Source of the DNA: Cyclobacteriaceae bacterium
Lineage (GTDB): Bacteria > Bacteroidota > Bacteroidia > Cytophagales > Cyclobacteriaceae
Reading direction: 5' to 3'
NCBI GenBank assembly: GCA_016787605.1
Contig: JAEUUE010000100.1
Span: 1-51,927 of the forward strand
Length of the DNA: 51,927 nt
Shown: piece after piece, positions 34,644 through 47,470 of the stretch
How positions within the stretch are numbered: position 1 is the first letter of the stretch
Layout: every line of letters begins with the position of its first letter
Program-made: the position numbers and the translations under genes
Notes under the pieces: model-generated
Databases searched by the model: none
Seen by the model: only the letters and a program-made list of their open reading frames with translations
What the model was told of the DNA's origin: nothing

Positions 34644-36080
34644 ATGGCAGGAACAGTCCCGGTTCGCGTTTTGCTGCTTATTGCCATGCTGCTCACCGGC
34701 TGTCGCTGGAATACCGGTCAATCCAACTTTACAGAGAGCCCCGAGGTAAGCATCGACCTGGATCAAATCCGGGAGCGGGGATTCCTGCAGGCGATCGTCG
34801 ACAACAATTCGATCAGCTATTTCATTTACCGGGGCCAACCGATGGGGTATGAGTACGAGCTCCTTCAAAGCCTGGCCCGTCAACTGAATGTAGAGTTGAA
34901 AATCAAGGTGCTCAGCGGGATCGAGCGGGCGATCGATCTGCTGAACCGGGGTGAGGCCGACCTGATCGCGTTTCCCCTGACCATCACCCGCGAGCGGACG
35001 GAATACCTGGCTTTTACCGATGCCCAATTTACCACTTGCCAGGTGTTGGTGCAGCGGAAGCCTGCAAACTGGCGCCGCATGCCCCCGGCGCGGGTTGAGC
35101 GGATGCTGGTGCGTGATCCGGTCGCCCTTATCGGGAGGAAGGTTCACGTCATGAATGAATCCTCTTTCAAGGAGCGCCTGGAGCACTTGTCCCAGGAGAT
35201 CGGAGGCGACATTGAAATTGTCGAAGATAGCGCCACCGCGGAGACAGAATCCCTGATTACCAGGGTCGCTAAGGGAGAAATCGAGTTTACTGTAACCGAT
35301 CAGACGCTGGGGATGGTCAACGCCATTTATTACCCTGATCTTGATGTAAGTACCGTCCTGAGCCTGCCGCAGCAGATTTCCTGGGCGGTGCGCAAGAACT
35401 CCCCCGGGCTTCAAACGGCCATCAATGGCTGGCTGGCTGCGCAGAAGGAGAGCGGCCGATTCAAGATCGTGTATGACAAGTACTTCAATAACCCCCGTTC
35501 GTCGCAGATCCGAATGACGAGCGCCTATTCGTCACTGGGAGGCAATAAACTCAGCCCGTATGACGAGGAGATCAAACGGGAGGCACGCAACCTGGGATGG
35601 GATTGGCGTCTCCTGGCTTCCGTGATTTACCAGGAGTCGAATTTCCGACCCAATGCAGAGTCATGGGCGGGGGCAGTAGGCCTGATGCAATTGATGCCGG
35701 CAACAGCCATCGAATTTGGAGCCGTCGACCGCACGAACCCCCACCAAAGCCTGCGCGCCGGCGTGCGCTACCTGAAGTACCTCGACAAGCTTTGGTCCAA
35801 ATACGTGCGCGACCCGAATGAGCGCATCAAGTACGTACTGGCCTCCTACAATGCAGGCCTCTCGCATATCCTCGATGCCCGTAACCTGGCCAAGAAATAC
35901 AGTAAAGATCCCAACCGGTGGGAGGACGTGGAGTCATTCCTTCGCCAGAAGTCCAACCCCAAGTATTATCGAGACCCGGTGGCGGTAGCGGGCTATTGCA
36001 AGTGCGAGGAGCCGGTCAATTATGTCCGCGATATCCTGGCTCGTTTTGAGGAATACAAGATCCTTATCGAAGAGGTTTGA
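34644..36080 (+). CDS. mltF: MltF-like membrane-bound lytic transglycosylase
   Basis: 478 aa lipoprotein (LLTGC, Cys20). Residues about 45-285 form a family-3 solute-binding domain (IVDNNSISYFIYRGQPMGYEY; NRGEADLIAFPLTITRERTEY), and about 305-440 the SLT transglycosylase domain with catalytic Glu331 in YQESNF, GAVGLMQLMPATA, and SYNAGLSHI. The architecture is that of E. coli MltF, which cleaves the glycan strands of peptidoglycan with formation of anhydro-muramic ends and binds muropeptides through its first domain. It lies in the periplasm at the outer membrane. It is convergent with kmo; the last 17 bases of both coding regions overlap (36064-36080). Confidence 0.92.
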   Translation: MAGTVPVRVLLLIAMLLTGCRWNTGQSNFTESPEVSIDLDQIRERGFLQAIVDNNSISYFIYRGQPMGYEYELLQSLARQLNVELKIKVLSGIERAIDLLNRGEADLIAFPLTITRERTEYLAFTDAQFTTCQVLVQRKPANWRRMPPARVERMLVRDPVALIGRKVHVMNESSFKERLEHLSQEIGGDIEIVEDSATAETESLITRVAKGEIEFTVTDQTLGMVNAIYYPDLDVSTVLSLPQQISWAVRKNSPGLQTAINGWLAAQKESGRFKIVYDKYFNNPRSSQIRMTSAYSSLGGNKLSPYDEEIKREARNLGWDWRLLASVIYQESNFRPNAESWAGAVGLMQLMPATAIEFGAVDRTNPHQSLRAGVRYLKYLDKLWSKYVRDPNERIKYVLASYNAGLSHILDARNLAKKYSKDPNRWEDVESFLRQKSNPKYYRDPVAVAGYCKCEEPVNYVRDILARFEEYKILIEEV

Positions 36081-37410
36081 GTTGCCCTACGATCTCGGCG
36101 AAGTTCAGGGATTCCCACCGTTCGGCGATGTGAGGCGTCTCCATCACCTTGTCCATAATCACCTTTTGACGGCGGCCCATTTCGAGGGCTTCTGAGTACC
36201 GAATCTCTTCGTGAAATGTGACCATGGAATACAGCGGAATCCACCGGGTGGGGTAGAGTTCATGGAGCCGGGCTTCAATCTTCTTCCGAAGAAGAAAGTC
36301 GGGGTCAGCCACCAGGTCCCGCATCTCTACAAAATTATCGAGGGCCAATTGGGCGATGGCGTCCGCATCGGCCTTGCGCAATTGTTGATATTCCGGAGCG
36401 GCCTTGCTCCAGTCGTCCTGGTGCTTATCGAGCAATTGGTTGAGCACCGCACAGTCCTCAAAGCCGGCATTCATCCCCTGGCCATAAAAGGGGACAATAC
36501 CGTGGGCCGCATCGCCGATGAGCAGGGTGCTGTTTTTCACCCAGGGGGTGCACCGGATAGTCACCAGCGAGGACGTGGGATTATCCCGGAAATCTTCCAG
36601 GAGGGAGGGCATCTGCTCCGTCGCATCCGGAAAAGTCTTGCGGAAGAAAGCCATCACCTCTTCGTCGGTATTCAGTTGCTGAAAGGATTGCGGGCCTTCA
36701 AAAGGGAAGAACAGGGTTACCGTAAAGGTCGCATCCGGGTTGGGCAAGGCAATCAGCATGAAGCTTTCCCGCGGCCAAATGTGCAGCGCCTCTTTCTCCA
36801 GCCTGAACTCGCCGTTGTCTCCCGGGGGAATCCTCAATTCTTTATATCCGTGTTCGATGAAATGCTGGGAGTATTCGAAGCGGTCCGTTATTTGCAAAGC
36901 CGCACGGATGGCACTGTAGGCTCCGTCGGCGCCAATGATAAGGTCGGACTGATGGTGGCGTGTGTCGTGCTGGTACTCGAAGGTAATCTCGGTCTTCTCC
37001 AGGTTGACTTCGATACAGCGATGCTCAAAGAAGAAGTTGACGCCCTGCTTTTCGGCCTCGTCCATCAGGAACATGTTCAACCCGCTGCGGGAAATCGAAT
37101 TGATGAATTGCCCGCTGGTGCCGTAAGGCTGATAGGTCAGCTTCCCCTGCAGGTCGTGCATCAGCCGGCCACGCATGGGAACCGAGTGCCTCTTCATTTC
37201 AGCGGCCAGGCCAACTTCTTCCAGGGCCCTGATGCCCCGGTTACTCAGGGCCAGGTTGATCGAACGGCCCCCGCCGAGAAAACTCTTGCGCATGTCGAAT
37301 CTCCGTTCATACACGCTGACCTTGTACCCGCGCTTCGCCAGGTAGATGGACAGCAGGGAGCCCACAAGGCCCGCACCAACGATGGTGATAGTGGTAGGTC
37401 TTTTCTTCAT
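36064..37410 (-). CDS. kmo: Kynurenine 3-monooxygenase
   Basis: 448 aa, right length for bacterial Kmo. An N-terminal FAD motif (ITIVGAGLVGSLLSIYLAKR, residues 8-27) is followed by the arginine-rich GGGRSINLALSNRG (about 46-59), the Kmo signature, and by LLIGDAAHGIVPFYGQGMNA for FAD phosphate and substrate contact. The NADPH-dependent flavoprotein adds a hydroxyl to L-kynurenine, giving 3-hydroxykynurenine. Kmo is usually fixed to membranes by its C-terminus in eukaryotes; none is obvious here. It is the last gene of a minus-strand series haaO - DinB-like - kynU - kmo; 69 bases separate it from kynU, enough for a weak own promoter. Its 3' end overlaps mltF. Confidence 0.95.
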   Translation of the reverse strand: MKKRPTTITIVGAGLVGSLLSIYLAKRGYKVSVYERRFDMRKSFLGGGRSINLALSNRGIRALEEVGLAAEMKRHSVPMRGRLMHDLQGKLTYQPYGTSGQFINSISRSGLNMFLMDEAEKQGVNFFFEHRCIEVNLEKTEITFEYQHDTRHHQSDLIIGADGAYSAIRAALQITDRFEYSQHFIEHGYKELRIPPGDNGEFRLEKEALHIWPRESFMLIALPNPDATFTVTLFFPFEGPQSFQQLNTDEEVMAFFRKTFPDATEQMPSLLEDFRDNPTSSLVTIRCTPWVKNSTLLIGDAAHGIVPFYGQGMNAGFEDCAVLNQLLDKHQDDWSKAAPEYQQLRKADADAIAQLALDNFVEMRDLVADPDFLLRKKIEARLHELYPTRWIPLYSMVTFHEEIRYSEALEMGRRQKVIMDKVMETPHIAERWESLNFAEIVGQLKPLR

Positions 37411-37479: not shown

Positions 37480-38745
37480 CTATAGCGATTCAGCAAGGAG
37501 GGTGGCGAATCGATGGACGTCCTCAAAGGTATTGTAGAGCGGCACCGGCGCGACACGGATCACGTCAGGCTCCCTCCAGTCGGCAATTACGCCACGACGG
37601 GTGAGGGCGTCAAACACCCGTTTTCCGCGTTGATGATTCATGAGGATGGAGAGCTGGCAACCCCGCGCGGAAGCATCGCGCGGCGTGATCACGGTATAAT
37701 GCTTGCCCCCGGGATCTATTTCATCCAGGAGAAAGGAGAGGTAACCGGTAAGCTGAACGCTTTTCCGCCGTAGCGCGGGCATTCCTACCTCCGAAAAGAT
37801 TTCCAGCGACGCAAGATGGGCCGCTCCGGTAAGAATCGGAAAGTTGGACAGTTGCCAACCGTCAACCCCGGGCATGGCGATAAAACCTTTCTTCATTTTG
37901 AACCGATCGCGTTCATAATGACCCCACCAGCCGGCCATCCGGGGCAGGTTTCCATCAGCATGGCGCTCATGCACAAAGGCTCCTGCCACGCTTCCCGGCC
38001 CCGAATTCAGGTACTTGTAGCTGCACCACACGGCAAAGTCCACCTCATCGCGGTGCAGCGCCAGCGGGACATTTCCGACCGCGTGTGCGAGATCAAAGCC
38101 TGCCATGGCGCCGGCTGCATGGGCCGCCGAGGTAATGGCCTTCAGGTCAAAGAACTGTCCGGAGTAGTACTGCACGCCGCCAAACAGGACCAGCGCCAGT
38201 TGGCCGGCTTCATCGCTGATCGCCTGCAGAATATCGGAAGTGCGGAGATAATGTTCGCCATTACGGGGTGACAGTTCCACGAGCGCATCCTCGGGATGGA
38301 TTCCGTGCAGCCTCAGCTGTGATTCTACGGCGTATTGGTCCGAGGAGAAAGCCCCGGCCTCCGTGATAATCTTGAATCGCTTCTTGTCGGGCCGGTAGAA
38401 GGTCGTCAGCATGAGGTGCAGGTTTACCGTCAGCTGATTCATGGCCACGACTTCCGAGGGTTTAGCCCCCACCAGTTTAGCCAGCGGCTTCTTGGTGAAG
38501 TGATGGTAATAGAGCCATGGCCTGCGGCCATGAAGGTGCCCCTCTACGCCGAGTTTCGCCCAATCCTCCAATTCTTCCAGCAGGAAGCGCCGGGTCCGTC
38601 GCGGCTCCAGGCCGAGGGAGTTTCCGCACAGGTAGATGGAGGGTTTCCCGTTGACTACCGGGATATGAAATTCCTTACGGTATTTTTTCAGCGGATCCTT
38701 TTGATCCAGGCGTCGGGCAAAGGAAAGCGAGTTCTCGTAGTTCAT
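37480..38745 (-). CDS. kynU: Kynureninase
   Basis: 421 aa, the typical size. PLP-enzyme of the class V fold: YLCGNSLGLEPR (38-49), SSDQYA (134-139), FDLAHAVGNVPL (217-228), the Schiff-base Lys244 in CSYKYLNSGPG, and the following GWWGH block. It cleaves 3-hydroxykynurenine to 3-hydroxyanthranilate and alanine (and kynurenine to anthranilate). It starts 9 bases after the DinB-like gene and is followed by kmo, so the three form one unit with haaO at the 5' end. No kynurenine formamidase or tryptophan 2,3-dioxygenase gene is in the window. Confidence 0.96.
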   Translation of the reverse strand: MNYENSLSFARRLDQKDPLKKYRKEFHIPVVNGKPSIYLCGNSLGLEPRRTRRFLLEELEDWAKLGVEGHLHGRRPWLYYHHFTKKPLAKLVGAKPSEVVAMNQLTVNLHLMLTTFYRPDKKRFKIITEAGAFSSDQYAVESQLRLHGIHPEDALVELSPRNGEHYLRTSDILQAISDEAGQLALVLFGGVQYYSGQFFDLKAITSAAHAAGAMAGFDLAHAVGNVPLALHRDEVDFAVWCSYKYLNSGPGSVAGAFVHERHADGNLPRMAGWWGHYERDRFKMKKGFIAMPGVDGWQLSNFPILTGAAHLASLEIFSEVGMPALRRKSVQLTGYLSFLLDEIDPGGKHYTVITPRDASARGCQLSILMNHQRGKRVFDALTRRGVIADWREPDVIRVAPVPLYNTFEDVHRFATLLAESL

Positions 38746-38754
38746 GCGGGGAAA

Positions 38755-39276
38755 TCAGGCAGGCGAATGAGTGGCTTCTATGGAATGTTGATGGTGCTTG
38801 GCATGGTAGGCCGTAAAGTAGAGCATCTCGCGCAATGTAAGTTTGCCTAGCAGGGGATGGGGAAGGATCAACGTATCGAGCTCTGACTCGGTGAATCGAT
38901 CGATGCGACGACGGAGCTGGTCGACTGTGCGGCCAAGGCGACGATAGACGCGGTCCAGGTTTCGCGGAATACCGGGTATGAAGGGGTTGGAGGCTCTTCC
39001 GCCGGCAGTCAGCTTGGCCTGGTACCTGGCCACCAACTCATCAAATGTTCGGCTGGGTCGGTTGGAACGGCCGAAAATCAGGGGGAGCAGAAACTTCGGC
39101 AGGGTGAAAGCCAGGGTCACCGGTCTGACACTCTTGACCAGGTGCTCCGCTTGTTGTGCCGGGCTCCATTTGCCGGGCGCCGCCATGTGTGCCTGCACAT
39201 CCGGCATCCGGCGCATAACGGCCAGGAAAGAAGCGTAGTTCTCGACGAGGAGGTTTTGAATTTCCGGTTTGGTCAT
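38755..39276 (-). CDS. DinB-like four-helix protein in the kynurenine operon
   Basis: 173 aa from ATG 39276, one base after the haaO stop (an in-frame start at 39285 would overlap haaO). The DinB fold is suggested by four helices and the three-histidine pattern: WSPAQQAEH with His45 and, near the C-terminus, TAYHAKHHQHS with His158 and His162 (spacing H-x3-H). DinB-superfamily proteins use such a His3 site to bind a divalent metal; some are thiol-dependent isomerases or transferases (maleylpyruvate isomerase relatives), others have no known reaction. Its place between haaO and kynU hints at a role in kynurenine metabolism or in detoxifying an unstable intermediate; unproven. Confidence 0.78.
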   Translation of the reverse strand: MTKPEIQNLLVENYASFLAVMRRMPDVQAHMAAPGKWSPAQQAEHLVKSVRPVTLAFTLPKFLLPLIFGRSNRPSRTFDELVARYQAKLTAGGRASNPFIPGIPRNLDRVYRRLGRTVDQLRRRIDRFTESELDTLILPHPLLGKLTLREMLYFTAYHAKHHQHSIEATHSPA

Positions 39277-39277
39277 A

Positions 39278-39805
39278 CTAAACAAACCGCGGGTCGGCTT
39301 CCATCACGGCGCCGCACTTTTTGCAGGTACGCATCTCCAGGGAACCATAAAACTCCCGGAAGCGCGGGAGAAAGTCGGTTTCAATGTTGTTCAGGTGAAA
39401 CTTGTACTCGTGCAGCTTGTTGTTGCACTTCTCGCAGAACCACATGAGCCCGTCATCTTCGGTGGACTGACGTTTGCATTCGATCACCAGCCCGATAGAG
39501 TTCGGCGTGCGGATCGGAGAGTGCGGCACCCGCCCCGGAAGAAGGAACATATCACCTTCGCTGAGGGGGATTTCCACGGCTTTGTCGTCCTCCTGTATTC
39601 TCACGGTAATGTTGCCTTCGAGCTGGTAATACAATTCTTCAGTTTCGTTGTAATGATAATCCTTCCGGGCGTTGGGTCCGGCTACGATCATCACGATGTA
39701 GTCACCCGCGTCGGCGTAGAGGTTCTTGTTGCCCACCGGAGGTTTAAGCAAATGACGGTTTTCTTCAATCCATTTCTTCAAATTGAACGGTCTGCGAATG
39801 GCCAT
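39278..39805 (-). CDS. 3-Hydroxyanthranilate 3,4-dioxygenase
   Basis: 175 aa cupin. Fe(II) ligands match the bacterial enzyme positions: His51, Glu57 and His95 (DYHYNETEELYY and GRVPHSP), and substrate residues Arg47, Arg99 and Glu110. The C-terminal extension holds a rubredoxin-like four-cysteine site (Cys124, Cys127, Cys161, Cys164) known from bacterial HAO. The dioxygenase opens 3-hydroxyanthranilate to 2-amino-3-carboxymuconate semialdehyde (ACMS), which either closes on its own to quinolinate (NAD precursor) or is decarboxylated for full degradation. It is the first gene of the minus-strand unit and is divergent from the SDR gene with 56 bases between start codons. Gene names used elsewhere are haaO or nbaC. 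Confidence 0.96.
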   Translation of the reverse strand: MAIRRPFNLKKWIEENRHLLKPPVGNKNLYADAGDYIVMIVAGPNARKDYHYNETEELYYQLEGNITVRIQEDDKAVEIPLSEGDMFLLPGRVPHSPIRTPNSIGLVIECKRQSTEDDGLMWFCEKCNNKLHEYKFHLNNIETDFLPRFREFYGSLEMRTCKKCGAVMEADPRFV

Positions 39806-39861
39806 ACGGACTGCTGCTTTAGGTATGTAAATCTAACCCTTTTCAGTCTATCTTTATCACC
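39806..39861. promoter_or_regulatory. Divergent promoter region of the kynurenine locus
   Basis: The 56 bases between haaO (minus) and the SDR gene (plus) must hold both promoters. Near-matches to TAnnTTTG, each ending in A instead of G, are TATCTTTA (39849-39856, plus) and TAGATTTA on the minus strand. Shared control of both arms is likely from this layout, but no operator is identified. Confidence 0.35.
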
Positions 39862-40647
39862 ATGGAACTCAGTCTGGCAGGCAAACGGGCCGTGGTTTGC
39901 GGGAGCACCCAGGGCATCGGAAAGGCATCCGCGATCGAATTGGCAGCCTTGGGCGCCAGCATTACGCTGGTGTCCCGAGACAAGGTAAAGCTCAAGGAAA
40001 CCCTGAAGGAACTTCCCGTGACCAAGGGCCAGGCGCACGATACGCTGGTGGCCGACTTCAACTACCCGGAGCGGCTCCAGTCAGCGATGGAAAAGTTCAC
40101 CTCTACGCACCCCGCGCATATCCTGGTCAACAATACCGGCGGGCCTCCCGCGGGTCCGGCTTTCTCGGCGTCGCTGGATGAATTTACCAAGGCGTTTGCT
40201 AACCACCTGCTTTGTAACCAGGTATTGGTCCAGGCCCTGGTGCCGGGAATGAAGAAGGAGAAGTACGGCCGGATCATCAACATCATCTCGACGTCTGTGA
40301 AAATTCCGATCCGGGGACTCGGCGTGTCCAATACCATCCGGGGGGCGGTGGCCAACTGGTCAAAGACGCTGGCCACGGAGTTGGGCGCCTTCGGCATTAC
40401 TGTGAACAATGTGTTGCCTGGCGCTTCCATGACCGGGCGTCTCGAAGCCATTATTCGTGACCGTGCCACCAAGCAGAAGAAGACACTCGATCAGGTGAGG
40501 GAAGAGATGGTCAGCGAGATTCCCGCAGGCCGGATTTCAAGTCCTGCGGAAGTTGCCGCGGCGGTGGCCTTCCTTGCCAGCCCGGCCGCAAGCTATATCA
40601 ACGGAATCAACCTTCCCGTGGATGGCGGGCGAACAGGTTGTCTTTGA
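39862..40647 (+). CDS. SDR-family protein without the YxxxK catalytic pair
   Basis: 261 aa Rossmann protein of the short-chain dehydrogenase fold: nucleotide motif CGSTQGIGKA (13-22), NNTGGPPAGP (90-99), Ser143, and end motif INGINLPVDGGRTG. The expected YxxxK is replaced by Ser156 and Arg160 (SNTIR), and the NAD motif departs from GxxxGxG only slightly. This is the profile of BKR-like atypical SDRs, which lack a perfect catalytic tetrad; normal ketoreductase activity is doubtful. It lies first in a plus-strand operon with an aldehyde dehydrogenase (9 bases on) and the PnuC-kinase fusion, and is divergent from haaO. A role in kynurenine breakdown is inferred from position only. Confidence 0.86.
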   Translation: MELSLAGKRAVVCGSTQGIGKASAIELAALGASITLVSRDKVKLKETLKELPVTKGQAHDTLVADFNYPERLQSAMEKFTSTHPAHILVNNTGGPPAGPAFSASLDEFTKAFANHLLCNQVLVQALVPGMKKEKYGRIINIISTSVKIPIRGLGVSNTIRGAVANWSKTLATELGAFGITVNNVLPGASMTGRLEAIIRDRATKQKKTLDQVREEMVSEIPAGRISSPAEVAAAVAFLASPAASYINGINLPVDGGRTGCL

Positions 40648-40656
40648 ATCCTTCCC

Positions 40657-42099
40657 ATGGAAAAGATTGCAAACTATATCAACGGCCAATGGCTGGCCCC
40701 GACTTCCGGAAAGTACCTGGATAACATCAACCCCGCAACCGGCGAGGTGTACAGCCTTATCCCGGATTCCGATGCATCGGATGTTCAATTGGCGGTGGAC
40801 GCAGCGCGAGCTGCTTTCCCGGGCTGGTCCACGTTGCTGGCGGAAAAAAGACATGCCGTACTGGCCCGTCTTGCCGATCTGATTGACCGGGATGCCGATG
40901 CGCTGGCAATGGCCGAATGCATCGACCAGGGAAAGCCGGTTAAGTTGGCCAAAAACATGGACATCTACCGGGCGGCGGCCAACATCCGGTTCTATGCGAC
41001 GGCATCCATGCATGTGGCCTCCGAGGCGCATGCTACCGGTGCGGAGGCGATCAACTACACTCTTCGAACACCCGTCGGCGTGGCGGGTTGTATTTCTCCC
41101 TGGAACCTTCCGCTCTACCTGTTTACCTGGAAAATTGCCCCGGCCCTGGCGGTCGGATGCACCGTAGTGGCAAAACCCTCGGAGCTAACCCCCATGACGG
41201 CCTACCTGTTTACCAGGCTCTGCAGGGAAGCCGGGCTTCCGGACGGGGTGCTCAATGTTGTCCAGGGACTGGGCCCCAAGGTGGGTCAGGCCATCGTGGA
41301 TCATCCCGATATACCGGCGATCTCTTTTACAGGTGGCACCGTTACGGGGAAGAAGATCATGTCCAGCGCGGGACCCATGCTGAAGAAGCTCAGCCTCGAG
41401 CTCGGCGGCAAGAACCCGAACATTGTTTTTGCCGACGCGGACTTCGACAACGCCGTGGCCACCTCGATCAGCAGTTCGTTCACCAACCAGGGGGAAATCT
41501 GCCTGTGTGGCTCACGCATTTTCGTGGAGCGAGCGTTGTTTGACCGGTTCGTAAAAGCGTTCGTGGAGAAGACCAAAGAATTGGTGGTCGGCGACCCGTT
41601 GGATGAAAAGACCCGCATCGGTGCGCTGGTCTCCGAAGGCCACATGAATAAAGTATTGTCGTACATCGAACTGGCCAGGAAAGAAGGAGGCACCTTGCTC
41701 ACCGGGGGCAAGAGAGTAACGGTTCCCGGTCGATGCGCCAATGGATTTTTTATCGAGCCTACCGTGGTGGTGGGGCTTCCCCAGGAATGCCGAACCAACC
41801 AGGAAGAGATTTTCGGCCCCGTTGTGACGATCATGCCGTTTGATACGGAGGATGAAGTGATCGGCCTGGCCAATGCGACAACGTACGGCCTCTCCGCTAC
41901 GGTCTGGACTACTCACCTGACGCGCGCACATCGCGTGGCCGCCCGGCTGAAGAGCGGCATTATTTGGATCAACTGCTGGCTCTACCGCGACCTCCGCACC
42001 CCGTTCGGCGGGATGAAACAGTCTGGGGTAGGTCGTGAAGGAGGCTGGGAAGCCATGCGGTTTTTCACTGAGGCAAAAAACGTCTGCGTCCGCCTGTAG
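40657..42099 (+). CDS. Aldehyde dehydrogenase, 2-aminomuconate 6-semialdehyde dehydrogenase-like
   Basis: 480 aa NAD-dependent ALDH. Catalytic residues are Asn150 (SPWNLPLY), Glu248 (LSLELGGKNP) and Cys282 (NQGEICLCGSR); the cofactor region has FTGGTVTGKKI (224-234). The end block CWLYRDLRTPFGGMKQSGVG, with Arg in RDLRTPFGG, is typical of the 2-aminomuconate / 2-hydroxymuconate semialdehyde dehydrogenase branch (human ALDH8A1, bacterial AmnC/DmpC). Next to kynurenine genes the likely reaction is 2-aminomuconate semialdehyde to 2-aminomuconate. Its substrate comes from ACMS decarboxylation, but no decarboxylase gene is in the window. It is the middle gene of the SDR - ALDH - PnuC/kinase operon (9 and 6 bases spacing). 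Confidence 0.88.
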   Translation: MEKIANYINGQWLAPTSGKYLDNINPATGEVYSLIPDSDASDVQLAVDAARAAFPGWSTLLAEKRHAVLARLADLIDRDADALAMAECIDQGKPVKLAKNMDIYRAAANIRFYATASMHVASEAHATGAEAINYTLRTPVGVAGCISPWNLPLYLFTWKIAPALAVGCTVVAKPSELTPMTAYLFTRLCREAGLPDGVLNVVQGLGPKVGQAIVDHPDIPAISFTGGTVTGKKIMSSAGPMLKKLSLELGGKNPNIVFADADFDNAVATSISSSFTNQGEICLCGSRIFVERALFDRFVKAFVEKTKELVVGDPLDEKTRIGALVSEGHMNKVLSYIELARKEGGTLLTGGKRVTVPGRCANGFFIEPTVVVGLPQECRTNQEEIFGPVVTIMPFDTEDEVIGLANATTYGLSATVWTTHLTRAHRVAARLKSGIIWINCWLYRDLRTPFGGMKQSGVGREGGWEAMRFFTEAKNVCVRL

Positions 42100-42105
42100 G
42101 ATCTG

Positions 42106-43272
42106 ATGTTTTTCTTCGACCACGAAAGCATTTTTTTCACGCTCTGGGGATACCCCATGAGCTACCTCGAATTCTTCGGGACGCTGGCCGGCGGGGTGGC
42201 CGTATGGCTTTCCGCCCGGGGGAATATCTGGAGCTGGTCCATCGGGATTGTCAACGTGGTCCTTTTCTTCTTTCTCTTTTACCAGGTACAGTTGTACCCC
42301 GACATGTTCCTGCAGGTATTCTTCTTTGTCACCAACCTGCTGGGCTGGTGGCGATGGGCCCATCCAAAGCCTGGCGAGGAGAACCGGAGAAAGGAGCTTC
42401 GGGCCAGCTGGATGGGATTTCAACCCACGTTTGTTTTGCTCCTGGTGACCCTTGCGGCCACGGCTGCATTCGGATATTTTGCCAGCAGCCTGCATGAATT
42501 GTCTCCGGCATTTTTTCCCTTGCCAAGCGCATTCCCCTACGCCGATTCTTTTGTGCTGACAATAAGTATCGCGGCCACTTACCTGATGGTCCAAAAGAAA
42601 GTAGAATGCTGGGCGGCGTGGATTTTGGCGGATGTGGTCGCGACTTACCTCTATTTTTCCAAGAGCATTTTGTTTGTGGGTGTCGAATACCTGGTGTTTT
42701 GCCTGATCGCCGCGTACGGCCTTTGGCAGTGGAGCAGGGAAGCCAGGTCGTCCAGAGTCAGGCTGATTTGCCTGTATGGCCCCGAAAGTACCGGCAAGTC
42801 TACGCTGGCCCGCAAGTTGGCCGAGCGCTACCAGACGGTCTATGTTCCGGAGGTGGCCCGCGAAATGATCGATTCAAACCGGTTTACGACGGAGGACATT
42901 GTTCGTATCGGGCGGGAGCAGACAGCCCGGGTGCTGGAATTGGCGAAGAAAGCAAACCGCGTTCTCTTCTGCGACACGGACGTGATTACTACGGCCATCT
43001 ACAGTGATGTATATCTCCACGAGATTCCCGGCGAACTGGAAGATCTTGAAAGAGCGATCCGCTATGATCAGTATTTCCTCTTCGACGTCGATGTCCCCTG
43101 GGTAGCCGACGGCCTGCGCGACCTGGACAGCAGGAGGGAGGAAATGTTTGCCCGGTTTAGAGTTGAGCTGGAGCGGAGAAAAATCCCCTATGTCCTGGTT
43201 TCTGGTTCGTACGAAGCACGGGAGCGAGCGATTGTATCGGTCGTCGACAAGCTGCTTATGCAGAAATCGTGA
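42106..43272 (+). CDS. PnuC transporter fused to a NadR-type ribosylnicotinamide kinase domain
   Basis: 388 aa, one uninterrupted frame. Residues about 18-210 are PnuC: several helices with the core WSWSIGIVNVVLFFFLFYQ (42-60), LYPDMFLQVFFFVTNLLGWW (63-82) and, in the second half, ECWAAWILADVVATYLYF (167-184). Residues about 217-385 are the NadR kinase domain: Walker A GPESTGKST (225-233), YVPEVAREMID (246-256) and FCDTD near residue 285-292. PnuC moves nicotinamide riboside by facilitated diffusion, and the NadR kinase phosphorylates it to NMN, so the fusion should couple uptake to trapping at the inner membrane. The NMN adenylyltransferase part of NadR is absent. It sits 6 bases behind the ALDH gene. 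The last 17 bases overlap the convergent MFS gene. Confidence 0.92.
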   Translation: MFFFDHESIFFTLWGYPMSYLEFFGTLAGGVAVWLSARGNIWSWSIGIVNVVLFFFLFYQVQLYPDMFLQVFFFVTNLLGWWRWAHPKPGEENRRKELRASWMGFQPTFVLLLVTLAATAAFGYFASSLHELSPAFFPLPSAFPYADSFVLTISIAATYLMVQKKVECWAAWILADVVATYLYFSKSILFVGVEYLVFCLIAAYGLWQWSREARSSRVRLICLYGPESTGKSTLARKLAERYQTVYVPEVAREMIDSNRFTTEDIVRIGREQTARVLELAKKANRVLFCDTDVITTAIYSDVYLHEIPGELEDLERAIRYDQYFLFDVDVPWVADGLRDLDSRREEMFARFRVELERRKIPYVLVSGSYEARERAIVSVVDKLLMQKS

Positions 43273-44539
43273 CAGGGCCTCTTCCGGCCCGGTGGCCTTT
43301 CCGGGCAAAATAGAAGATGTAGATGTAGCAGGGGAGTACAATCCAGAAGAAGGCAGCGGGAGGCCCCAGGCTGGGTGCAAGCCGGGCGTAGATCTGCGGA
43401 ATGATGGCGCCGCCCGCGATTCCCATAATCAGCAACGCGGAGCCGATCTTCGTAAAGGAACCCAGCCCGTCGATCGCCAGGGGAAAAATCGCGGGCCACA
43501 TCAGGGCGTTGGCAAAGCCCAGCAACGCGATAAACACAATGGAGAGGTAGCCGTCGGTCACATAGGCCAGGCCGCTGAAGAGCGCGCCGACGATCGCGGA
43601 GATGGCCAGTGCCTTCTCCTGGCTGATCCATTTCGGTATGGTGAAAATCCCCAGGATGTAGCCCGCCACCATAGACCACAAGGTGTAGGAGGTGAAGTTT
43701 TTGGCTTCATCGAGGCTGATGCCGATGGCTTTTCCATAAATGCTGATCACATCGCCGGCCATTACCTCAACGCCCACATAGACGAAGATACAGAGAGCAC
43801 CCAGGAGGGTGTGGGGAAACTGAAAGATGCTTGTCTTCCCCAGGTGCATGCCGCCTTTGTCTTCCGATCCCGGATCGATCTCAGGCAACTTGGAATACCG
43901 AATCATCACGGCCAGCAGGACCAGCACGGCCGCCATGACGCCATAGGGCAGGATGACCCGCTGGGACAGTTCCTGCAGCAACTGTGTGCGCACGACCGTG
44001 TCGGTAGCCGACTGGATCTGTTGTTCAATGGCGCTGGCATCACTCAACACAATGGCCCCGAGAATCAGCGGGCTGATGGCTCCTGCCACTTTATTGCAGA
44101 TGCCCATGATACTGATCCGGCTGGCTGCGCTCTCAATGGGTCCGATTACCGAGATGTAAGGGTTGGAGGCGGTCTGCAGGAGCGAGAGGCCCATGCCCTG
44201 CACGAAGAGGCCGGTAAGAAATAAGGTGAAGTCCCTGCCCATCGCCGCCGGGATGAACAGCAGGGCGCCTCCGGCCATCACGGCGAGGCCGAGGGACATG
44301 CCGTTCTTGAAGCCTGTTTTTCCCAGGATCATTGAGGAGGGGATCGCCAGGAAGAAATAGGCCATGTAAAAGGCAAAAGTCACCAGCAGGGCCTGGGCAT
44401 CGGTGTGCAGGTCGCAGGCCAGCTTCAGGAACGGGATCAGCGTACCATTGAGCCAGGTGACAAATCCGAAGATGAAGAACAAGGCGCCGATCACGACAAT
44501 CGACATCGTGTAATTGGCAGAGCGGGGAGCATTGGACAT
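43256..44539 (-). CDS. FucP/GluP-type sugar MFS transporter
   Basis: 427 aa with twelve predicted membrane helices. TM1-TM2 read IGALFFIFGFVTWLNGTLIPF (17-37) and ALLVTFAFYMAYFFLAIPS (50-68), typical of the fucose:H+ / glucose-galactose symporters of this branch; SLLQTASNPYISVIGP (139-154) and FANALMWPAIFPLAIDGLG (about 345-363) are later family blocks. It probably imports a hexose or amino sugar with a proton or sodium. It is divergent from the nucleotidyltransferase and kinase genes (76 bases apart), which would process such a sugar. Its 3' end overlaps the PnuC-kinase gene on the other strand by 17 bases. Confidence 0.92.
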   Translation of the reverse strand: MSNAPRSANYTMSIVVIGALFFIFGFVTWLNGTLIPFLKLACDLHTDAQALLVTFAFYMAYFFLAIPSSMILGKTGFKNGMSLGLAVMAGGALLFIPAAMGRDFTLFLTGLFVQGMGLSLLQTASNPYISVIGPIESAASRISIMGICNKVAGAISPLILGAIVLSDASAIEQQIQSATDTVVRTQLLQELSQRVILPYGVMAAVLVLLAVMIRYSKLPEIDPGSEDKGGMHLGKTSIFQFPHTLLGALCIFVYVGVEVMAGDVISIYGKAIGISLDEAKNFTSYTLWSMVAGYILGIFTIPKWISQEKALAISAIVGALFSGLAYVTDGYLSIVFIALLGFANALMWPAIFPLAIDGLGSFTKIGSALLIMGIAGGAIIPQIYARLAPSLGPPAAFFWIVLPCYIYIFYFARKGHRAGRGPVTISA

Positions 44540-44615
44540 GATGCTAAAGTATGGATAAAGTGGATTGAATGTGTATTTTTAAGGGTACATCCTTTGACAC
44601 TAATTCTTACCTGCG

Positions 44616-45527
44616 ATGAATAACAAGAAGACCCTCTCCCTGCTCGTCATGGCGGCCGGCATGGGAAGCCGCTATGGAGGCATTAAACAGATTGATGGCT
44701 TCGGTCCCAACGGGGAGACCATTATGGATTATTCCCTCTATGATGCGTTGCGTGCAGGGTTTGGCCAGATTGTTTTCGTTGTGCGCCAGGAAATTCTCGA
44801 GACCGTCAAAGAGATGTTCCTGCCCAAGCTGAAGGGCAAAGCCGACGTTCATTTTGTGATCCAGTCGTTGGACAAGTTTGTGCCTGACCGGGTAGGCCCG
44901 GTGGACCGCAAGAAGCCGTGGGGAACTACCCATGCCATGCTGTGCGGCAAGGAAGTCATCCAGGGTCCCTTTGCCGTCATCAATGCCGATGATTTTTACG
45001 GACGCGATGCCTTTGCTTCGTTAGCGAAGTTCTTCCAGACTTCGGCACCCGATGAGCATGCCATGGTGGGTTACACGCTGAAAAATGTGTTGTCTGACCA
45101 TGGCAGCGTGTCACGCGGCGTGGCGGAAGAGCGGGATGCTGAGGGTTACCTCAAGGTTCTCAACGAACTGGCCAAGATTGTCAAGCGCGACGGAAAGATC
45201 TACTCCCAGGAGAACACCGGGGAGCGACTGTTGGATCCCATGTTACCCGTATCCATGAATTGCTGGGGCTTTGGACCAAGTGTGTTTCCGTTGGCGGAAG
45301 AGATGTTCCGCGAGTTCGTGGATCACAATATCGGCCACCCATCGGCGGAATTCTATATCGCCCTTTTAGTCAACGAGATGATCCGTCGGAAGAAAGGCAG
45401 GGTACGCATCGTTGATGGGGGCACAACCTGGTTTGGTGTTACATACAAGGAGGATAAAGACGAAGTCTCCGGCAAGATCCGGCAGCTGGTGAAGGACGGA
45501 GTGTATCCGGAGAAGCTTTGGGGCTAA
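44616..45527 (+). CDS. Nucleotidyltransferase (sugar-1-phosphate NTP_transferase fold)
   Basis: 303 aa. The N-terminal nucleotide-binding motif is LSLLVMAAGMGSRYGGIKQ (7-25), a version of the AAGxGxR...K motif of sugar-1-phosphate nucleotidyltransferases, and the metal-binding aspartates are in NADDFYG (Asp125, Asp126). GFGPNGETIMDYSLYDALRAG replaces the usual PKPxxPxxxxP stretch, a variant common in Bacteroidota. It should activate a sugar-1-phosphate with UTP or another NTP. The APH-fold kinase gene begins 24 bases downstream, and the MFS transporter is divergent; a salvage pathway of uptake, anomeric phosphorylation and nucleotide activation is inferred. Confidence 0.85.
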   Translation: MNNKKTLSLLVMAAGMGSRYGGIKQIDGFGPNGETIMDYSLYDALRAGFGQIVFVVRQEILETVKEMFLPKLKGKADVHFVIQSLDKFVPDRVGPVDRKKPWGTTHAMLCGKEVIQGPFAVINADDFYGRDAFASLAKFFQTSAPDEHAMVGYTLKNVLSDHGSVSRGVAEERDAEGYLKVLNELAKIVKRDGKIYSQENTGERLLDPMLPVSMNCWGFGPSVFPLAEEMFREFVDHNIGHPSAEFYIALLVNEMIRRKKGRVRIVDGGTTWFGVTYKEDKDEVSGKIRQLVKDGVYPEKLWG

Positions 45528-45551
45528 TCCTGCGCGGCCAGCTCCTGATTC

Positions 45552-46580
45552 ATGGCGGAGGTTGCTCAAATCCTGCAGCGGTACCATCTCGATTCCGCCC
45601 ACTTCAAGGTGGAGCGTATCGGTTCCGGGCACATACACGCCACCTATAAACTGACCGGACCCCGCAGCTATGTGCTTCAGCGGGTCAACAAGAATGTTTT
45701 TACACAGCCGGAACTGATTGCCTCCAATCTGCGCCGGGCCGCCGACTACCTGAAATGGAATTCCCCGGATTACCTGTTCCCCACGGTGATCCCCTCAGCG
45801 GGCGGGAAAGAGATGGAGTACGACGAGGAGGGTTTCCCCTGGCGATTGTTCCCCTACATCGACAATACGATTACCATAGATAGTGTCTCCTCAGCCGACC
45901 AGGCGACGCAGGCAGCCATGGCCTTTGGCAGACTCAGCCGTTTGCTGGATAAGGCGGACGTCAGCTCCTTTCACCCGACGATCCCAAGGTTCCACGACTT
46001 GGCGTTGCGAAAAGTGCAGTTTGAAGAAGCATTGACTGGAGCGGGCGACCGTGCACAGCCTGCCGCCCAAGCCATCGAATCAGCCAAGAGGTTCTTCCCC
46101 CTGGTGGATGAGTATGAGGCGCTGATCCGGTCGGGTTCCCTCAAGGAGCGCATCGTGCACAATGACACGAAAATCAACAATGTGCTGTTTGACCGGACCA
46201 CCGGCAAAACCGTCGCGGTAATCGATCTGGACACGCTGATGCCGGGTTACTTCATTTACGACCTCGGTGACATGGTTCGCACGTTCGTATGCCCGGTCAG
46301 CGAAGAGGAACAGGATTTCTCCCGCATCGCATTCCGGAAGGAGATTTATGAGGCCCTTGTGGAGGGATACCTGTCGGAGATGGGTCCGGTGATGACGGAA
46401 GGTGAAAAGGCGAGTCTTTCGTTTGCCGGGAGAATGATGACCTACATCATGGCACTTCGCTTCCTGGCGGACTACCTGCGGGGCAATACGTACTATCACA
46501 TTACCTATCCCGAACAGAACCTGGTACGGGCGGGAAATCAGCTACGATTACTGGAAATACTGAGCGAGAACCTGGGGTAA
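45552..46580 (+). CDS. APH-fold sugar kinase (NahK/AmgK-like)
   Basis: 342 aa. The aminoglycoside-phosphotransferase fold is visible from IGSGHIHATYKL (23-34), a P-loop-like nucleotide region, the catalytic HNDTKINNVLFD (203-214, Asp205, Asn209/210) and the metal-binding DLDTL (225-229). Relatives phosphorylate the anomeric hydroxyl of sugars: NahK acts on N-acetylhexosamines and AmgK on N-acetylmuramic acid or N-acetylglucosamine. Position directly behind the sugar-1-phosphate nucleotidyltransferase, as in amgK-murU pairs, supports an anomeric sugar kinase. It is convergent with lipA (2 bases between stop codons). No substrate can be assigned from sequence alone. Confidence 0.85.
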   Translation: MAEVAQILQRYHLDSAHFKVERIGSGHIHATYKLTGPRSYVLQRVNKNVFTQPELIASNLRRAADYLKWNSPDYLFPTVIPSAGGKEMEYDEEGFPWRLFPYIDNTITIDSVSSADQATQAAMAFGRLSRLLDKADVSSFHPTIPRFHDLALRKVQFEEALTGAGDRAQPAAQAIESAKRFFPLVDEYEALIRSGSLKERIVHNDTKINNVLFDRTTGKTVAVIDLDTLMPGYFIYDLGDMVRTFVCPVSEEEQDFSRIAFRKEIYEALVEGYLSEMGPVMTEGEKASLSFAGRMMTYIMALRFLADYLRGNTYYHITYPEQNLVRAGNQLRLLEILSENLG

Positions 46581-46582
46581 GT

Positions 46583-47470
46583 TCAGTCGATCGGAACGTT
46601 GACGTGGCGTTCGGCATGGTAGGAGGAGCGGACCAACGGTCCCGACTCAACATACCTGAGCCCTCGTTTCAATCCCTCCTCTTTGTACATCTCGAATACC
46701 TCGGGATGAATGAACTCAGCCACTTCGAGGTGCATCTTCGTAGGTTGGAGGTACTGCCCCAGGGTAAGAATGAGCAGGCCGTTGGCGACAAGGTCGTCCA
46801 TTGCCTTGAACACTTCTTCTTTGGTTTCCCCTACGCCCAGCATGATGCCGCTCTTCGTGCGTTTGCCGGCCTCACGCGTTCTCCGGATTTGCTCCAGGCT
46901 GCGCTCGTACTTCGCCTGGGGACGCACCCGGCGGTACATCCGCTCCACCGTTTCCAGGTTATGGCTGACCACTTCCTGGCCGCCTTCGATCATGCGATAG
47001 AGCGCTTCCCAGTTGCCTTTGGTGTCGGGTATCAGCGTTTCAATGGTCGTCTGCGGGCACTCCCGTTTGGTTTGTACGACGGTTTGGTACCAGATCTCGG
47101 CTCCGCGATCCTTCAGTTCATCACGGTTCACCGAGGTGATCACGGCGTGCTTCACCTTCATGAGGCGAATGGCCTCAGCCACACGACGCGGTTCGTCGGT
47201 ATCATATTCCGTGGGGCGCCCGGTGGCTACGGCACAAAAGGTGCAGCTGCGGGTGCATACATTCCCAAGGATCATGAAGGTGGCGGTTCCTGCGCCCCAG
47301 CATTCACCCATGTTCGGGCAGTTACCGCTCTCGCAGATGGTGTGAAGCTTGTGGGTATCCACCAGCCGCCGCACGTGAGCATATTCCGGGCCCACGGGGA
47401 GTTTAACCCGCAACCAATTGGGTTTGCGTTTGCGGGTCTCGTCGGCCGGAAGCACAGGGAGCTCGATCAC
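46583..47470 (-). CDS. lipA: Lipoyl synthase
   Basis: 295 aa radical SAM enzyme. The auxiliary 4Fe-4S cluster ligands are Cys46, Cys51 and Cys57 ([12 protein letters not shown]), the SAM cluster Cys72, Cys76 and Cys79 (CTRSCTFC), and the C-terminal ligand is in RSSYHAERH (about 281-289). It inserts two sulfurs into the octanoyl group on the lipoyl domains of GcvH and 2-oxoacid dehydrogenases, using its auxiliary cluster as sulfur source. The gene begins 29 bases after gcvH, its substrate-carrier gene, on the same strand, which is an apt pairing. Confidence 0.97.

Follow-up and report, generated by a model that had tools for sequence, protein, structure and literature searches.

A stop-free PnuC–ribosylnicotinamide kinase fusion gene beside kynurenine genes in a Cyclobacteriaceae genome: a candidate membrane-tethered uptake-and-trap enzyme for nicotinamide riboside

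The window, by which we mean the whole 51,927-nucleotide stretch of DNA that was analysed, carries kynurenine genes on the reverse strand and, diverging from them, a forward run of three genes whose last member joins a PnuC channel to a kinase. The features are as follows.

36064..37410, reverse strand: kmo, kynurenine 3-monooxygenase (PDB matches)
37480..38745, reverse strand: kynU, kynureninase (TIGR01814, 451 bits, cut-off 246)
38755..39285, reverse strand: DinB-like gene (DinB_2/DUF1569, Pfam) between kynU and haaO
39278..39805, reverse strand: haaO, 3-hydroxyanthranilate 3,4-dioxygenase (NF009763, 263.8 bits, cut-off 220)
39806..39861: divergent gap of 56 bases from the haaO start to the SDR start
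39862..40647, forward strand: SDR-family oxidoreductase, first gene of the run (PF13561/PF00106)
40657..42099, forward strand: ALDH, probably 2-aminomuconate 6-semialdehyde dehydrogenase (AMSDH; PDB matches)
42106..43272, forward strand: PnuC::ribosylnicotinamide-kinase fusion gene, 388 aa (single frame; Pfam/NCBIfam; AF2 model)
42106..42738, forward strand: PnuC domain, residues 1-211
42739..42759, forward strand: junction, residues 212-218 (residues 212-215 closing the last membrane helix, then a 3-residue link)
42760..43269, forward strand: NadR-type ribosylnicotinamide kinase domain, residues 219-388

In the forward run, a 9-base gap separates SDR from ALDH and a 6-base gap separates ALDH from the fusion. 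The initial annotation had placed the fusion third in a tight run, 6 bases behind ALDH, and the coordinates agree; it had also described this run as facing kmo, kynU and haaO, whereas the starts in fact diverge, 56 bases apart. Its proposal of one transcript for NAD salvage and tryptophan breakdown stands in part: the SDR and AMSDH-like ALDH genes could join the fusion on one message but, since kmo, kynU and haaO lie on the opposite strand, these genes could not. With a simple pattern, no promoter of the TAnnTTTG type, the pattern of Bacteroidota, was found in the 56-base gap, and no tRNA was found in the window. The kmo assignment is based on PDB matches at E ≤ 1e-30, all ten of which were KMO (best 1.3e-106). 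The ALDH is probably AMSDH, as judged from the seven best of its 172 PDB matches at E ≤ 1e-60, all AMSDH (best 8e-143); on TIGR03216, the model of a related enzyme, it scored 589 bits, under the cut-off of 693.

ORF analysis of the window showed that positions 42106-43272 form a single open frame of 388 codons, and neither a stop nor a frameshift interrupts this frame between the two domains in the assembly. The fusion ORF is genuine: PnuC runs stop-free into a NadR-type kinase. Pfam and NCBIfam bore out the earlier description of channel and kinase as one 388-residue protein that lacks the adenylyltransferase. The NMN_transporter family (PF04973) matched residues 19-211 over its full length (model positions 1-175 of 175; E = 1.3e-49; 169 bits, cut-off 27.3), and the PnuC model TIGR01528 scored 106.3 bits, above its cut-off of 42.45. 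In the second half, AAA_28 (PF13521) matched residues 221-372 with E = 2.3e-38. The NadR model TIGR01526 reached 101.8 bits (cut-off 341) and covered model positions 150-323 of 325, which is its kinase end only; neither Pfam nor NCBIfam reported a CTP_transf_like/NMNAT domain or a DNA-binding domain in the fusion. Since the TIGR01526 match is partial and far under its cut-off, and the channel fills the remaining chain, the second half represents a NadR-type kinase and the protein is no NadR. The Walker A motif GPESTGKS (residues 225-232, positions 42778-42801) is intact in the kinase domain, as are DTD at residues 290-292 and DGLRD at residues 335-339. In a PDB sequence search the kinase half matched NadR (8x7f, 1lw7, 6gye and others) and the channel half matched PnuC (4qtn).

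The AF2 model of the fusion (pLDDT 93.2, pTM 0.81) consists of seven membrane helices (residues 20-37, 42-60, 64-85, 105-132, 144-162, 167-185 and 189-215), a link of three residues (216-218) and the kinase. Its PnuC part has the fold of 4qtn, and the match to 4qtn spans model residues 10-219 only. For the structure alignment, 50 of 140 related rows were taken in even steps, 10 for the channel and 40 for the kinase, and aligned with MAFFT. Lysine and arginine are distributed unevenly, with 11 on the three inner loops and the channel's C-terminal end versus one on the N-terminus and the three outer loops, and this skew to the inner side indicates that the kinase should be cytosolic.

A search for other fusions and their operon neighbours had been suggested by the initial annotation; it turned up no further fusion among the matches listed or the loci examined, and the operon neighbours were conserved. 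All 62 genomes of the genus matched, and among the matches listed only the host genome itself gave a stop-free match over residues 1-388. The searches of the family (180 of 196 genomes matching), the phylum (158 of 395) and, at E ≤ 1e-30, the order (86 of 390) revealed no second stop-free fusion among the matches listed. A search of genome contigs, whose collection may omit records very close to the host genome, gave 46 loci, and an ORF check of loci L003-L104 plus 66 further loci found no single frame of PnuC plus kinase. Among the matches listed, ten genomes showed a single match across both domains, the two being separated by one stop (G025 and G098 in the family; G507 in the phylum; G904, G740, G790, G714, G809, G761 and G963 in the order). 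In 30 of 721 matching phage records and 20 of 39 matching plasmid records, the places that cover both domains were split in two or three pieces; wherever such two-domain pieces are named, they are separate features. The one-frame form appears to be specific to this species, and the relatives examined use separate genes. Several candidate fusions were rejected. G025 and G507 proved to have adjacent genes when their DNA was read, the long open frames in G017 (572 aa), G173 (604 aa), G631 (412 aa) and G460 (413 aa) correspond to two genes with a stop between, and an unannotated phage place turned out to be two genes on inspection.

A tree was built from 94 distinct channel sequences of at least 50% identity, with the window included, and its rows were labelled by what stands after pnuC. 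This was an NMNAT-kinase in 53 rows, a kinase-only gene in 25, a distant kinase without detected NMNAT in seven and nothing near in eight, while the window was the only fused row. The window row was sister to L060, which has a kinase-only neighbour (support 97, starred), and the two fell inside a starred group of eight of which the other six rows were NMNAT-kinase. The tree requires at least 15 changes between NMNAT-kinase and kinase-only, their direction not being inferred; the count comes from a quick tree with 31 of 91 inner branches weak and leaves out the seven 'gap' and eight 'none' rows, L068 being 'gap' by 2 bases. The NMNAT-kinase protein is NadR-like, that of L064 scoring 190.6 bits on TIGR01526, under the cut-off of 341. 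Probably, the lineage started from pnuC plus an NMNAT-kinase gene, the NMNAT half was lost repeatedly, including in the ancestor of the window and L060, and the fusion came afterwards, in which case the adenylyltransferase domain would already have been gone when channel and kinase were joined.

The surroundings of pnuC were compared in 39 loci whose channel is 50% identical or more; in 33 of these the upstream sequence extended over 6 kb or more (8 kb requested). Upstream of pnuC in these 33 loci, ALDH was present in 25, SDR in 23, haaO in 21, kynU in 17 and kmo in 13, the far genes often lying beyond the end of the fetched stretch. The linkage to kynurenine genes that had been noted in the window is thus conserved, and the counts delineate a block of kmo-kynU-(DinB)-haaO and, divergently, SDR-ALDH-pnuC-kinase, sometimes opened by inserts. 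The gene with DinB_2/DUF1569 between kynU and haaO is also found in some relatives. An ALDH of at least 60% identity was not near pnuC in eight of the 33 loci (five Spirosoma, Niabella, Chitinophagaceae and a Flammeovirgaceae MAG), and the channel-kinase pair is therefore not dependent on that locus of kynurenine genes. In two relatives, SDR and ALDH are separated by inserted genes for one or two PD40/OmpA-type surface proteins (L065:3435-5519 and L067:1423-5563, the pair in L067 being putative), and the interval from ALDH to pnuC holds a formylglycine-generating-enzyme-like gene of opposite orientation (L065:7040-8017, reverse; L067:7034-7948, reverse, by eye). Downstream of the fusion, positions 43256-47470 hold a gluP-type MFS transporter, a nucleotidyltransferase, an APH-type kinase and a lipA-like gene (by eye); the transporter gene is convergent and overlaps the last 17 bases of the fusion. 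This downstream order is repeated in several relatives, and the nucleotidyltransferase was found in 21 of the 33 loci.

The gene content of the host genome was examined for routes to NAD. NadA gave no match in this genome, which is 98.87% complete so that a gap is possible; the same search finds NadA in 12 of 14 control genomes. Across 60 genomes of the genus, NadA showed a scattered distribution, being present in eight and not found in 52, with NadC in 59 and TDO in 53. None of six close relatives yielded NadA, only two of them reaching 90% completeness with contamination of 5% or less; five are also within the 60-genome set and the sixth, that of L060, is probably G213, since the stretches agree. 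TDO, KMO, kynureninase, HaaO and NadC were all found in the host, with NadC at C149 and TDO at C176, the TDO match, which lies in a frame of 341 aa, covering model positions 15-137 of 346 with 86.5 bits (cut-off 34.9). As NadA was not found while TDO and NadC were, the kynurenine genes are probably the host's de novo route to NAD. ACMSD is encoded at C115 (8.7e-124 for its best PDB match; NCBIfam gave no family at 1e-5), which makes ACMS a real branch point: through ACMSD and AMSDH it can be burnt, or it can cyclise to quinolinate, from which NadC leads on to NAD. The point made by the initial annotation, that quinolinate is a possible product of ACMS, gains strength from these findings, and a shared NAD locus is plausible; this locus might, as the annotation proposed, balance de novo and salvage NAD supply. 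Four cytidylyltransferase-like matches in the host correspond to NadD, CoaD, an HldE-type domain and RibF, and no NMNAT partner of the NadR or NadM type was found among them; since PF01467 detects the NadR-type NMNAT weakly (L064, 22.6 bits versus a cut-off of 21), a diverged NMNAT encoded elsewhere in the host could have escaped detection. A PncC-domain protein is encoded at C61. The host also has a stand-alone second NadR-type kinase (G000:C107:40479-40997, L002; 33% identity), which adjoins an MFS-transporter-like gene (by eye).

Our preferred reading, to which we give a probability of roughly 0.7, is that a lineage-specific fusion produced a membrane-tethered enzyme for uptake and trapping of nicotinamide riboside (NR) within a locus for NAD precursors. 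The PnuC domain would admit NR by facilitated diffusion, and the kinase, held at the cytosolic face by the 3-residue link, would convert it to NMN, which cannot leave the cell and would thereby be trapped. NMN would then be finished elsewhere, either by NadD directly or by PncC deamidation followed by NadD (and NadE). That the fusion adjoins the kynurenine genes would be explained by both supplying the NAD pool in a cell that has no aspartate (NadA) route. The chemistry could also be as proposed while the kynurenine neighbourhood merely reflects inherited gene order with no shared role in NAD supply. We regard this as possible but doubtful: the block does continue into sugar-transporter, nucleotidyltransferase and lipA genes that have no NAD link, pnuC-kinase pairs occur without kynurenine genes, for example in Spirosoma, and unrelated genes split SDR from ALDH and ALDH from pnuC in the two relatives examined at the level of single genes, but the genus-wide pattern of rare NadA with near-universal NadC and frequent TDO, and the gap of only 6 bases between ALDH and the fusion, speak for a common role.

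The membrane-tethered uptake-and-trap reading also depends on NR being the substrate. Pnu proteins for other substrates exist, the kinase fold is common to thymidylate and deoxynucleoside kinases according to the structure comparison, and the genome has the second kinase-only homologue at C107, all of which would suit a deoxynucleoside- or thiamine-type Pnu protein that handles another nucleoside or vitamin. Such a substrate is nevertheless improbable, since the channel exceeds the cut-off of the NR transporter model TIGR01528 and the kinase domain is closest to NadR in both sequence and fold, with solved NadR relatives that include 8x7f, 1lw7 and 6gyf. The tree links the kinase to NMN as well: of its 94 rows, counting the window, 53 have the kinase joined to a NadR-type NMNAT domain. 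No family of Rfam attained its threshold anywhere in the window, hence no thiamine or other riboswitch.

The junction in relatives suggests how two genes could have become one. An ATGA four-base overlap of the pnuC stop and the kinase start was present in eight of 12 printed loci, or seven of 11 different sequences, as L014 and L096 agree; the remaining printed junctions had short gaps or a different overlap. The nearest relative, L060, has 73% identity in the channel and the ATGA overlap, and its stretch agrees with that of L032. The pnuC stop and kinase start of the relatives fall at about residues 212-218 of the fusion. When L060 and the window were aligned by eye between a shared GAA-GCC and a shared GTC, L060 had about 14 extra bases, and these contain both its pnuC stop and its kinase ATG. 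In the window, the kinase frame is free of ATG, GTG and TTG over the 28 codons from after codon 197 to Walker A at residue 225. A small deletion in an overlapping pnuC-kinase pair probably removed stop and start together and created the fusion. That overlapping genes were instead joined in silico, by a base missed or added near 42730-42764, is very unlikely: the relatives do carry two genes, mostly with a four-base overlap in a different frame, a second fused copy was found nowhere among the matches listed or loci examined, and the fusion rests on one assembly of 191 contigs, but a difference of about 14 bases with stop and ATG both gone is unlike a single-base error, which would not yield the fusion frame, a split gene would require an error within about 35 bases plus a GTG or TTG start in another frame (42723, 42729), and the genome is 98.87% complete with 0.06% contamination.

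The closest known systems share the parts but not the arrangement. Neisseria mucosa PnuC (PDB 4qtn) is an NR channel, and in the fusion the last helix of the PnuC domain continues into the kinase. Compared with NadR (Haemophilus influenzae 1lw7, Lactococcus lactis 6gye/6gyf, and 8x7f), the fusion has no reported NMNAT or DNA-binding domain, and its kinase is instead tethered to the membrane through PnuC. The accessible text of PMC7221760 describes pnuC-nadR operons in Clostridium thermocellum and Nostoc punctiforme with trapping by NadR, and that of PMC12735969 such an operon in Streptococcus sobrinus; these have the same functions in adjacent genes but make two proteins, whereas the fusion makes one. 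The Cyclobacteriaceae pairs of pnuC with a kinase-only or NMNAT-kinase gene (L060, L064 and others) have channels of about 53-73% identity to that of the fusion, and many stand in the same SDR/ALDH/kynurenine locus, their genes being separate in the loci examined. For the kynurenine side, PMC6593275, in the portion available, lists an NAD variant P2 with Tdo, Kmo, Kyn, Had, NadC, NadD/NadM and NadE in 12 gut genomes, as well as PnuX for riboflavin. The host likewise has TDO, KMO, KynU, HaaO, NadC and NadD, with NadA not found, but differs in having AMSDH at the locus and ACMSD elsewhere, which open a second fate for ACMS, that of being burnt. No description of a PnuC-kinase fusion was found in the open-licence literature searched, outside which most subscription papers lie, nor in the accessible portions of PMC7221760, PMC4217691, PMC6593275, PMC7176098, PMC7749635 (where neither 'fus' nor NadR occurs) and PMC12735969.

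Whether NadR traps NR in contact with PnuC or at a distance is an open question according to the available part of PMC7221760, which states that a direct NadR-PnuC interaction had been proposed but lacks experimental evidence. In a natural one-chain version the stoichiometry and geometry are fixed, and the possibility of purifying, cutting and mutating it brings the contact question within reach of experiment. As a speculative extension, which we hold to be unlikely, the 3-residue link might place the kinase at the channel's inner mouth for a hand-over of substrate, that is, a one-chain vectorial phosphorylation of vitamin B3 resembling group translocation; if true, this would be direct natural evidence for a channel and a NadR-type kinase working in contact. 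Furthermore, the adjacency of NR salvage to kynurenine genes in many Cyclobacteriaceae, where NadA was often not found, provides a lead on how NAD supply is set. The weight of the finding is limited in that both parts are well known and only a single genome was found to have the fusion. Neighbouring genes that encode successive steps often become fused.

Other rearrangements of the kinase were observed beside pnuC in relatives. In L043, L047 and L090 the kinase occupies two frames instead of one, owing to either sequencing error or decay. In G464, a NadR-type kinase beside pnuC is fused to DUF4301 (L147:3185-5440; 751 aa; DUF4301 E = 1.4e-202), and in other loci of family f7, such as L117, L126 and L130, the kinase frames beside pnuC are about as long, which suggests a fusion to DUF4301 there too; DUF4301 may act on the same pathway as the NadR-type kinase and pnuC. 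Finally, a 498-aa frame beside pnuC in G323 (L139:2163-3659) combines the kinase (AAA_28) with an aldose 1-epimerase domain.
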